49,856 nt of DNA, from NCBI GenBank assembly GCA_020047755.1, contig JAIFNL010000253.1, positions 1 to 49,856 of the forward strand, read 5' to 3'. Origin of the DNA: Bacteroidota bacterium. Lineage in GTDB: Bacteria; Bacteroidota; Bacteroidia; Bacteroidales; JAIFNL01. Each line of letters begins with the position of its first letter. Position 1 is the first letter of the stretch. Positions 3,432 through 6,898 of the stretch are shown here, one piece after another. The notes beneath the pieces were generated by a model. The model saw only the letters and a program-made list of their open reading frames with translations, was not told the DNA's origin and did not search any database. Position numbers and translations under genes: made by a program.

Positions 3432-5522
3432 CTAATTAACTTCAGTTACATTTATATATTTGTTTTTCAAATAATTATAAATATCAACTTGAGCTCTGAC
3501 TTTTACTCCCGAGTCGTCAGTTTTAGGGACATTTACCAGATTTTCATCAATAAAACAGGCATTTGTATTATCAGCAAGTTGAATTGATAGAATATCTATC
3601 AATTCTTGCTTGATAATCGGGTTGGTAATTGGAATAGCAGTTTCGATGCGTCGATACAAATTGCGCTTCATCCAATCAGCAGAAGCAAAGTAAGTTAAGT
3701 CTTCACCATTGCTGTGAAATAACCAAACACGTGCATGTTCTAAATATTTATCAACAATACGAATAAGTCTGATATTTTTGCTATATTCCTGATTTGGAAC
3801 CAATCGGCAAACTCCTCTTACTAACAAGTCAATTTTCACACCGGCAAGGCTTGCTTGATACAAAAGTTCGACGAAAGCTTTAGCTTCCAATCCATTCATT
3901 TTAGCCAAAATGTAGGCTTTTTTCCCTTCTTTTGCATTTTTTATTTCATTGTTTATCAAATCTTTAAGCTTATCAATCATGTTAAATTGAGCAACTAATA
4001 TTTTCTTGAAAACAGGTTTGTATTTTAAATCTTCGAGATATAAAAATAACTCGGTCAAGTCAGAAATCATTTCTTCATCGGAAGTAAAAAATCCGTGATC
4101 TGCATAAAGTTTTGCGGTTTTTTCGTTAAAATTACCGGTGCTCAAATACGCATAACTTTTCAAGGGCTTTTCGTTGCTCGATTTTCGAATAACTAAAGCC
4201 ACTTTGGCATGAACTTTTATTCCGGGAATGCTATGAATAATTTTAATACCCGCTTTTTGCATTTTTTCGGCAAAAGTTAAGTTCATTTCTTCATCAAACC
4301 TCGCCTTATATTCTACAAAAACAGTAACATCTTTTCCATTTTGAGCTGCGCTTATTAGAGCATTTACTATGGCAGAATTTTTAGCAACACGATACTGTGT
4401 TGTCTTGATTGCCTGCACTTTAGGGTCAATAGCCGCTTGTGTAAAAAACCGGATTACATAATCATAAGTTTGGTATGGATAGTTCAAAAGCCATTCTCGT
4501 TTTTTTATTGCTTCAAACATCGAATCGTATTCATTAAGTTCTGGCAATGGCAAATTTGGGAGTTTTACTCTTTCCAAAGCAGGCGACAAAGGATTTGGAA
4601 AGTCAAATAAATCGGACATTCCGGAATATCTCGAACCCGGAACTAAATCGTCTTTTGACAAATTAAAAACATTTCGCAATATTTTCAAAAAACTTTTTGG
4701 CATCATATCATCATACACAAAACGCGCCGGATCACCTGTTTTTCGTTGCGACAGACTACTTCTTATTTTTTTTACAATATTGCCCTGAAACTCATCTTCG
4801 ATAAGTAAGTCCGCACTTCGCGAAAGTTTTATACTATACGATGAATCAATAAGATAGCCCGGAAATAGTTTATCTAAATTGTGCTTAATAATATCGTCAA
4901 TCATAATAATAAAATGATTGTCGCTTTCTCCCTTAGGCAACTCAATAAAACGAGGTAAATAGCTCAAAGGCAGCTTAATAATTGCATATTGTGGTTTTCC
5001 GTACTTTTTCTTCTTTTTCTTTTTCTTTTTGCTGAAAAGCTTTACTGCCAAGTAAATAGCATTGTCTTGCAAAAATGAAAGTACATTTCCTTCAGCCAAC
5101 AAAGCTGGCTGAATTGCAGGCAAAATTTCTTGATAAAAATAGTTTTCTAAAAAATCTTTTTGTACAATATTTAATTCCTCATTTTGACAAAAAATAATAT
5201 TATTTTGTTTTAATTCGGGTAAAATATCATGCTCAAATATCCTATTAAATTCTTTTTGCTGGCTATTAACTTCGATATTGATAGAATTTAATACCTCTTT
5301 TGGGTCGTAATCTAGCGAATTACTTTCAACCCCAATAGAGCTTCGATAATAAGCAACTCGCACTTTGTAAAATTCCTCCATATTGGAAGAATAAATTGCA
5401 AGAAATTTAATTCGCTCATAAAGAGGAAGTTGCTTATTTGCAGCTTCCATTAAAACACGAAAATTAAAAGAAAGCCAGCTAATATCTCTATTGTAAAATT
5501 TAAAATTTGTTGCTACTTCCAT
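3432..5522 (-). CDS. ppk1: polyphosphate kinase 1
   Basis: PPK1 transfers the gamma phosphate of ATP reversibly onto polyphosphate. The start chosen is ATG at 5522 (MEVATNFKFYNRDISWLSFN), giving 696 residues; a longer reading from 5528 begins with TTG and adds only two residues. N-terminal domain about 1-100, head domain about 100-315, two PLD-like catalytic domains thereafter. The phosphorylated His is H438 in IKVHAKVALV. FVEYKARFDEEMN and YLSTGNFNEKTAK are conserved family segments. Length is normal for the family. Odd point: residues 165-173 are nine consecutive lysines (codons alternating AAA/AAG) in the head domain, where family members usually have a short, mixed-charge loop. Confidence 0.95.
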   Translation of the reverse strand: MEVATNFKFYNRDISWLSFNFRVLMEAANKQLPLYERIKFLAIYSSNMEEFYKVRVAYYRSSIGVESNSLDYDPKEVLNSINIEVNSQQKEFNRIFEHDILPELKQNNIIFCQNEELNIVQKDFLENYFYQEILPAIQPALLAEGNVLSFLQDNAIYLAVKLFSKKKKKKKKKYGKPQYAIIKLPLSYLPRFIELPKGESDNHFIIMIDDIIKHNLDKLFPGYLIDSSYSIKLSRSADLLIEDEFQGNIVKKIRSSLSQRKTGDPARFVYDDMMPKSFLKILRNVFNLSKDDLVPGSRYSGMSDLFDFPNPLSPALERVKLPNLPLPELNEYDSMFEAIKKREWLLNYPYQTYDYVIRFFTQAAIDPKVQAIKTTQYRVAKNSAIVNALISAAQNGKDVTVFVEYKARFDEEMNLTFAEKMQKAGIKIIHSIPGIKVHAKVALVIRKSSNEKPLKSYAYLSTGNFNEKTAKLYADHGFFTSDEEMISDLTELFLYLEDLKYKPVFKKILVAQFNMIDKLKDLINNEIKNAKEGKKAYILAKMNGLEAKAFVELLYQASLAGVKIDLLVRGVCRLVPNQEYSKNIRLIRIVDKYLEHARVWLFHSNGEDLTYFASADWMKRNLYRRIETAIPITNPIIKQELIDILSIQLADNTNACFIDENLVNVPKTDDSGVKVRAQVDIYNYLKNKYINVTEVN

Positions 5523-6039
5523 ACTCAACTAATAATTTGTTTTAGTGCCATTTATATCATTTTTTGGAATGCAAAAAAGCCTAAAATTAGTGTTTTTTTA
5601 TAAAAAATGAACTATTTTGACAAAATAGTTTCTATTGAAGGAACTATTTTTAACATTTCCAAAGCATTGTTTTTTTTGCGTAATATTACAACTTTTATTT
5701 GAAATTTCCTCATTTTTATAGTCTTTTCTTACTCAAAAAAAATAGTTTTTTTAATTTTCCAGATTTATTTTAATTTTTCAAATTATTTTCTATTTTAACT
5801 AAAAATAATTTCGTTTTTTATTGACTTTTTGCTTTTTTTTTCGTAAAATGTTAATAAATATTAATTCCCAAAGGTGTCCGAATTTGAACAAAACAAGCTC
5901 CACAAACGTGCAATTATAATCAAAAACGAAAGAAAATTAAACTATAACAAGCTGTATATTAATAAATTATAAAAATTGGCATAAAAAATGATATTCATTG
6001 ATAAACGTAAGATTCTAAAAAAAAATAGGAGGATTTATT
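5523..6039. other. divergent intergenic region
   Basis: This 517-base region lies between divergent ppk1 and the WM-repeat gene and must carry both promoters. It has long runs of A and T. The only recognisable elements are a TTGGCAT-N5-ATG sequence at 5976-5990 and a strong ribosome binding site at 6027-6033, both serving the right-hand gene. No further gene was seen. Confidence 0.5.
5976..6033 (+). promoter_or_regulatory. possible sigma-54-like promoter and strong Shine-Dalgarno site
   Basis: AGGAGGA at 6027-6033, six bases before the ATG at 6040, is a full Shine-Dalgarno sequence, which is rare in this window. Upstream, TTGGCAT-N5-ATG at 5976-5990 resembles the -24 half of a sigma-54 promoter (TGGCAC-N5-TTGC), but the -12 half matches poorly. 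No TAnnTTTG box was found here. The ribosome binding site is well supported; the promoter reading is weak. Confidence 0.35.
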
Positions 6040-6798
6040 ATGAAACGAAAAAATATAAATTTAGCAACTTTAAAACTTAGCATTATTGCAGTTTTAATAA
6101 TTATGTCGTTTTCGGCAAAAGCACAAATTGACGAATTTGCAGCAACTGAAGAAACTGATAATGAACTACTTTTAGAAAAATGGATGACCGATGATTTGTA
6201 TTTCGATTTAGACTATAAAGGTTTATTGTGCTCAGACAAAGGTCTTTCGCTCGAGGCATGGATGATGAGCGACAATTATTTTTCAAAAAATTATAGCCCT
6301 CTGTTAATTAGCAACTTAGATGAAAAGCTAGAAGTCGAAAACTGGATGATACAAACAATTTATTGGCAATGCCCAAGTAATTTTCTAAATACACCCAGCA
6401 CCGAAAATAGTTTTGAAATAGAAGCATGGATGCTTTCGCAAAACTACTGGAATCCGTCCTTTAATCTGCTCAATGACCTGACTACCAACGATAATTTGCT
6501 GCAAATAGAACCATGGATGCTATCTTCTAACTATTGGAGGTCGCCTGCCGATGATTTGAAATGCGAAGACGAAAATATCGATACCGAAGCCTGGATGATT
6601 TCGGATAATTATTGGAGTCCAAGCTATTCGCCCTGCGAGCACGTTTCTGATACTCACCTGGAGATAGAAAATTGGATGAGTAACGACAACTATTGGAATA
6701 ATAAATGTATTTTAAAAATTTTGTCTAAAGAAGTACTTGATAATGAAATATTTATAGAAAACTGGATGGTTGACGAAAATTATTTTATTGTTCAATAA
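6040..6798 (+). CDS. secreted WM-repeat protein, function unknown
   Basis: The 252-residue product has a signal peptide (residues 1-28, hydrophobic core LSIIAVLIIMSF, likely cleavage after SAKA). The rest is eight repeats with the invariant pattern E-x-W-M-x4-Y-[FW]. The Trp residues are at 48, 74, 102, 130, 159, 185, 212 and 242, a period of 26-30 residues. The positions before the Glu alternate hydrophobic residues (LEVENWM, FEIEAWM, LQIEPWM). Spacers are acidic and five carry a single Cys. The protein ends two residues after the last YF-I. No known domain was recognised; similar uncharacterised repeats may exist in other Bacteroidota. The gene is monocistronic, with a strong ribosome binding site and its own terminator. 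Confidence 0.8.
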   Translation: MKRKNINLATLKLSIIAVLIIMSFSAKAQIDEFAATEETDNELLLEKWMTDDLYFDLDYKGLLCSDKGLSLEAWMMSDNYFSKNYSPLLISNLDEKLEVENWMIQTIYWQCPSNFLNTPSTENSFEIEAWMLSQNYWNPSFNLLNDLTTNDNLLQIEPWMLSSNYWRSPADDLKCEDENIDTEAWMISDNYWSPSYSPCEHVSDTHLEIENWMSNDNYWNNKCILKILSKEVLDNEIFIENWMVDENYFIVQ

Positions 6799-6838
6799 TT
6801 AAAGAAACAAAAACGGCTGTTTTCTTTCAAACAGTACA

Positions 6839-6868
6839 AAAAAAACCGGATTAATTCCGGTTTTTTTT
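6839..6868 (+). terminator. intrinsic terminator of the WM-repeat gene
   Basis: Stem AAAAACCGGA (6841-6850) pairs with TCCGGTTTTT (6856-6865) around the loop TTAAT, and eight T follow the GC core. It lies 40 bases after the stop codon. Confidence 0.85.
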
Positions 6869-6898
6869 GTTATTTATATTTATTCTAAATAAAAATAG

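Follow-up and report, generated by a model that had tools for sequence, protein, structure and literature searches.

The gene at positions 6040 to 6798 of the window, the whole stretch of 49,856 nucleotides analysed here, encodes an exported protein with eight E-x-W-M repeat units. Judged from sequence searches, this protein belongs to a real family that is restricted to one lineage, the Bacteroidales, and has neither a database entry nor a name. The best functional clue in the sequence is a putative sigma-54 promoter with an upstream enhancer site, UAS (5875–5992), which the original prediction had missed. The promoters of the family suggest that the repeat gene is, in all likelihood, under envelope-stress-type control, and the window protein probably numbers among the protective proteins that the cell exports upon attack on its envelope. 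To the whole explanation, in which the secreted protein is made in response to envelope-stress signalling and acts as a multivalent sequestrant, we give about an even chance. The sequestrant or holdase role on its own, like that of ZraP or Spy but in an unrelated protein, is suggested by analogy and is more tentative. Major bacteria of the gut and of sediments belong to the Bacteroidales, and little is known about what their envelope-stress responses produce. Through its promoter and neighbourhood ties, the family may serve as a marker gene for such responses and provides a set of testable targets; in addition, a palindrome is proposed as the binding site of a sigma-54 response regulator that is widespread and uncharacterised.

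The window protein and its family

The features of the gene are listed in Table 1. A motif scan recovered all eight E-x-W-M-x4-Y-[FW] units that had been described (8/8), with Trp at 48, 74, 102, 130, 159, 185, 212, and 242 and a spacing of 26–30 residues; the full Shine-Dalgarno sequence and the gene's own terminator-like hairpin were also found where expected. When the mature sequence was shuffled 20,000 times, one motif arose in five shuffles and two never, as compared with the eight observed. Secretion, part of the original prediction, is supported by the Sec signal peptide. The codons of the units have diverged as claimed, with differences at E, Y, F, and every variable position. Against the ortholog from the same genus (L002; 43% identity overall), the window protein is identical at 31 of 32 motif residues (E, W, M, Y) and at 65 of 189 other mature positions; the proposed selection on the protein is therefore real. 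The gene is single-copy in its genome and flanked by ppk (polyphosphate kinase) and a DUF255/thioredoxin-like gene, with no transporter or kinase alongside (Pfam). In genome G001, a DUF255-type gene likewise lies downstream of the repeat gene, and a 708-aa ORF occupies the place expected for ppk. The leader of the window gene gave no match to an RNA element in Rfam.

Table 1. Features of the repeat gene and its upstream region (window positions)
Feature	Position	Strand	Basis or remark
Putative enhancer (UAS) half-palindrome pair TGTCCGAATTTGAACA, presumed sigma-54 response regulator site	5875..5890	+	1 mismatch to TGTnCGN4CGnACA
Possible degenerate second UAS GCTCCACAAACGTGCA, 22 bp past the first	5897..5912	+	4 mismatches; weak alone
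Putative sigma-54 -24/-12 promoter TTGGCATAAAAAATGAT	5976..5992	+	TGGCA[CT]-N5-[ACT]TG, same place in relatives
Shine-Dalgarno AGGAGG	6027..6032	+	Sequence
E-x-W-M repeat protein gene	6040..6798	+	252 aa; ORF list and translation
Sec signal peptide, probable cut AKA/QIDE, no lipobox	6040..6123	+	Sequence
Unit 1 EKWMTDDLYF	6175..6204	+	Motif scan
Unit 2 EAWMMSDNYF	6253..6282	+	Motif scan
Unit 3 ENWMIQTIYW	6337..6366	+	Motif scan
Unit 4 EAWMLSQNYW	6421..6450	+	Motif scan
Unit 5 EPWMLSSNYW	6508..6537	+	Motif scan
Unit 6 EAWMISDNYW	6586..6615	+	Motif scan
Unit 7 ENWMSNDNYW	6667..6696	+	Motif scan
Unit 8 ENWMVDENYF	6757..6786	+	Motif scan
Intrinsic terminator-like hairpin with U-run	6836..6870	+	Sequence

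In keeping with the original prediction, to which the family was unknown, the protein had no significant match in Pfam (best E 0.079, below the cut-off), NCBIfam (none), PHROGs (E 0.21), or PDB (E 1.9). A profile search with the repeat found homologues with the same motif and no match to a characterised domain family. Protein and unit-profile searches, with motifs counted in ORFs, gave a family of 37 distinct proteins in 24 Bacteroidales genomes, four of them in Prolixibacter denitrificans. Members were defined by an N-terminal hydrophobic export segment, at least two E-x-W-M units, and an acidic chain, all of which the window protein has. The unit profile matches in 22 of 393 genomes of the order; at a stricter threshold, across 395 genomes of the phylum, the window's own genome is the sole match. 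A match in G195 (L011), where the frame is interrupted, was dropped because it lacks E-x-W-M repeats. A plasmid gene was also considered and rejected, as tblastn against 72,556 plasmids gave no match, and a text search of the literature for 'exwm' returned a single paper, an unrelated cancer study.

The family proteins are 110–290 aa long and contain 2–8 units with a period of mostly 17–31 aa, the last unit usually forming the end of the protein. The N-terminal hydrophobic segment is present in 37/37 members and a lipobox in 0/37; the net charge of the mature region is negative in 37/37, with a mean of -0.15 per residue. From 170 units, the consensus is [ED]-x-x-L-x-[ILV]-E-x-W-M-x-[DNS]-x-x-[YF]-[WF], in which E (98%), W (100%), and M (99%) are conserved and the Tyr/Trp end is loose. 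Family-wide, only E-x-W-M is invariant; the Y-[FW] end and the 26–30 period are features of this subgroup.

Two AlphaFold runs gave mean pLDDT values of 33 and 37, with higher values in the signal helix alone and nearly the entire mature protein below 50 in both, on shallow alignments (1 and 4 sequences) for which low confidence does not prove disorder. A regular solenoid of stacked repeats, raised with the original prediction, gains no support from these models and is ill-suited to the family because the motif spacing varies (mostly 17–31 residues) across relatives. The mature window protein is a long, acidic, and probably flexible chain.

Promoters and candidate regulator

The original prediction held that the gene may be highly expressed; its promoter is, by the predicted elements, of an inducible type. 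Its -12 element is TGA, and the UAS is located 102 bp upstream of the -24 element, the same place as in 17 relatives; the second UAS agrees in position with that of some relatives, L003 and L004 among them. The common layout consists of TGTnCG-N4-CGnACA, often with a second copy about 21 bp on, followed by TGGCA[CT]-N5-[ACT]TG, usually 40–90 bp before the ATG. The distance from the UAS start to -24 is 101–105 bp in nearly all genes and 113–114 bp in two P. denitrificans genes. A sigma-54 element no more than 95 bp from the start is present in 17 of 32 repeat genes versus 9 of 394 neighbouring genes. With a UAS 95–115 bp further up, the counts are 14/32 versus 3/394 (Fisher 5e-15; our Fisher statistics count related genes as independent, and the true significance is lower). 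The three non-repeat genes with this layout encode an HlyD adaptor, an FtsX-type permease, and a small secreted protein. As would be expected for sigma-54 dependence, the window gene has a -24/-12 promoter and an upstream UAS, and its genome encodes RpoN (PF04552, E 5e-52) and activators with a Sigma54_activat domain.

Genome-wide, the pattern UAS-N77-103-TGGCA gave 16 matches in 12 genomes and one in the backward control. Several of the matches lie inside genes and are probably due to chance; those in intergenic regions precede repeat genes, an HlyD adaptor operon, FtsX/MacB permeases, a small secreted protein, and RNA-like stretches. In the window genome, searches with the UAS and -24/-12 patterns returned mostly intragenic matches and no second clear UAS plus sigma-54 target. 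This result, the mismatch in the first UAS, the poor second site, the TGA at -12, and the position of the window gene away from transporter and kinase genes weigh against the stress-output explanation.

The candidate regulator, P0003 (contig C283 of the window genome), contains Response_reg, Sigma54_activat, and HTH_8 (Fis-type HTH) domains (Pfam). Of the 16 genomes that carry a UAS-type repeat gene, a group in which G015 was placed by eye, 15 encode a relative with at least 64% identity; the one exception, G329, is an 82% complete genome. At a 60% cut-off, relatives occur in 4 of 23 other genomes tested (Fisher 2e-6, to be read as above). In eight genomes the repeat genes have other types of promoter; of these, G346 alone has a P0003-type regulator, and G254, G176, G056, and G326 have only relatives of 47–51% identity. 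Among the 15 genomes with no detected repeat gene, relatives were found in G002 (95%), G017 (72%), and G009 (63%). The presence of the UAS therefore tracks the regulator class, and a P0003-type regulator may be the protein that binds the palindrome.

An ECF-type promoter, TGTAAC-N17-GTC[AT][TA], was found at 12 of 34 repeat genes versus 0 of 435 other, neighbouring genes. Both promoter types are present at L020 and L165; at about five relatives, neither is recognisable. As sigma-54 and ECF promoters occur within one family, this family appears to receive input from two distinct extracytoplasmic alarm routes. Three ECF-type repeat genes (L022, L029, and L179; two in G176 and one in G267) are followed by genes for PadR and PspC, a phage-shock pair, and two of the three pairs have a Toastrack domain. 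The window gene, between ppk and the DUF255 gene, is not adjacent to such a pair. A PspC-PadR type of envelope-stress operon with Toastrack is described in a survey (PMC11237479), and the likeness lies in the PadR and PspC genes after these three relatives; under 'secreted' and 'tryptophan', the text of the survey showed no such repeat protein. Upstream of the -35 element of four ECF-type genes (L023, L024, L025, and L028, in G073, G267, and G176), there are (T/C)ACCG(G/A)(T/C)AAA-like boxes, perhaps the site of a further regulator.

Neighbourhoods and possible role

In three lineages, the repeat genes are neighbours of transporter genes (domains verified by Pfam in representatives and assigned by tblastn in the others). 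P. denitrificans has the order kinase, regulator, MacB ATPase, FtsX permease, and two repeat genes, with the kinase-regulator pair divergent from the MacB ATPase operon, two UAS copies and a sigma-54 element before the ATPase gene, and a UAS and sigma-54 element before each repeat gene. In G063, G329, and G259, all from one family (f62), a small protein, a MacB ATPase, and an FtsX permease precede the repeat gene. In G176, a kinase-regulator pair is followed by the repeat gene and then by TolC-HlyD-MacB-FtsX. Here, the repeat gene and the tolC operon have in common a different upstream element, GTGTAAAATATTTTTACA with TGGCATCGTT[AC]TGG; co-regulation therefore survives the change of site. Most other repeat genes, including that of the window, stand alone. 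Sigma-54 control of ABC-type antimicrobial-peptide permeases (COG0577) is enriched in Bacteroidia (PMC12316311), and these statistics give independent support for the transporter half of the regulon.

Two observations were made at these loci. The G176 repeat gene (L030:7863-8323) has an in-frame TGA exactly at the Trp codon of a WM motif, which is either a pseudogene or a sequencing error. A conserved protein of about 95–99 aa, with no Pfam match, is encoded beside MacB ATPases (L130:3382-3681, L123:5779-6081, L166, and L168), and the L130 copy lies behind its own UAS and sigma-54 site.

The explanation we prefer would run as follows. Upon envelope damage, which we infer to be the inducing condition, a regulator of the kind proposed would bind the palindrome at 5875–5890 and switch on the sigma-54 promoter at 5976–5992. 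Sec would export the protein, as the signal peptide predicts, to a location presumably in or beyond the periplasm. There, the repeated L-x-[ILV]-E-x-W-M motifs of the chain would bind one kind of partner many times. The most likely use of such multivalent binding would be sequestration, either of hydrophobic segments that damaged envelope proteins expose or of membrane-active compounds, while the co-regulated MacB/FtsX transporters would remove or repair.

ZraP, which binds zinc, is compact and lacks repeats of this kind. Spy and CpxP (CpxAR/BaeSR regulons) are small periplasmic proteins induced by envelope stress; they are helical LTxxQ proteins under sigma-70 type control. BaeR controls Spy and an efflux pump, a pairing of stress protein and pump that resembles that of repeat gene and transporter here. 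No LTxxQ or metal-resistance type domain (Spy/CpxP/ZraP) was found in the window protein with Pfam. The nearest functional precedent is ZraP of the ZraS-ZraR system in E. coli and Salmonella, where the sigma-54 response regulator ZraR activates this chaperone (PMC7657598). No link in sequence or domains was found between the window protein and ZraP or Spy, and the repeat family differs in being accompanied by MacB/FtsX transporters and partly by ECF promoters. Relatives of the window gene have their promoter layout and neighbourhood in common with MacAB-TolC and further type VII ABC systems; none of the MacB systems described in the literature compared includes the repeat protein.

The transporter neighbourhoods could also be read in other ways. 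The repeat protein might itself be cargo, exported by Sec, taken up in the periplasm, and expelled by a co-regulated MacA-MacB-TolC-type machine as an external signal, antimicrobial, or public good. Adjacency and common promoters with MacB ATPase, FtsX permease, HlyD, and TolC genes fit this, and MacAB-TolC does export proteins that Sec has delivered to the periplasm, among them a small toxin and protein-like signals (PMC5985334). However, most repeat genes, ECF-type included, have no such transporter nearby, multiple unlinked copies occur in several genomes, no conserved processing sites separate the units, and 110–290 aa is large relative to known cargo; we regard the cargo role as unlikely. 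Slightly less probable still, in our estimate, is that the family is a dedicated partner of type VII (MacB/FtsX) and PSP-like systems, a flexible, multivalent E-x-W-M chain capturing membrane-active compounds or damaged lipids or proteins and passing them to the mechanotransmission machine; if true, a soluble binding-protein role would be new for these systems. The same low standing is given to a decoy that soaks up cationic antimicrobial peptides with an acidic chain of regularly spaced Trp and Met before they contact the membrane. The uniformly negative mature chains, co-regulated permeases of the antimicrobial-peptide transport class (PMC12316311), and PspC/PadR neighbours as part of a membrane-damage response are in keeping with a decoy, but acidity does not need an invariant E-x-W-M, and secreted acidic proteins are common.

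Negative feedback, in which the repeats would bind the kinase on its periplasmic side (or that of PspC or anti-sigma proteins) and switch the response off, has precedents in CpxP and ZraP, and the neighbours of relatives include a kinase/regulator pair (L126, L030) and PspC. It needs no eight repeats, though; the window gene is unlinked to the presumed kinase, and a single motif would need to act on two types of sensor that are unrelated, which leaves this role quite improbable. The scaffold guessed at in the original prediction, a structural surface or matrix protein with stacked repeats, is the least credible reading: secretion, repetitiveness, and a repeat number that differs between relatives would suit it, but the irregular period, the lack of a confident fold, of a sorting domain, and of a lipobox, and the stress-type promoters all speak against it. 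Two further candidates were rejected. A RiPP or multicore precursor is disfavoured by the Sec signal, the absent processing sites, and the long variable linkers, and copper binding by Trp/Met, as in CusF, by the absence of conserved His or Cys in the repeat protein.

Other elements near UAS-like sites

Two stretches on the minus strand, L128 (G002 contig C295, from 10531 downwards) and L129 (G063 contig C4), have no plausible ORF and are preceded by the same UAS and TGGCA layout. Both contain GGTTAATAGGT, and a strong hairpin with a U-run closes each of them; neither matched an Rfam family at gathering score. These stretches are possible sigma-54-controlled small RNAs. In the window genome, contig C33 (L059) has on its minus strand two copies (5391-5455 and 5624-5690) of a small-RNA-like element, GGTTAATTTGGTTAATAGGTAGGTTTAAATTGG...GTGTCGTCTGGTAAACGACAC followed by a U-run, with no Rfam match and no clear -24 element; they adjoin two TGTTCG..CGAAC palindromes 22 bp apart. 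In G145, the UAS and sigma-54 layout precedes a gene for a 129-aa secreted protein (L127:9973-10362), a candidate further member of the regulon, the C-terminal half of which resembles a type IX sorting domain.
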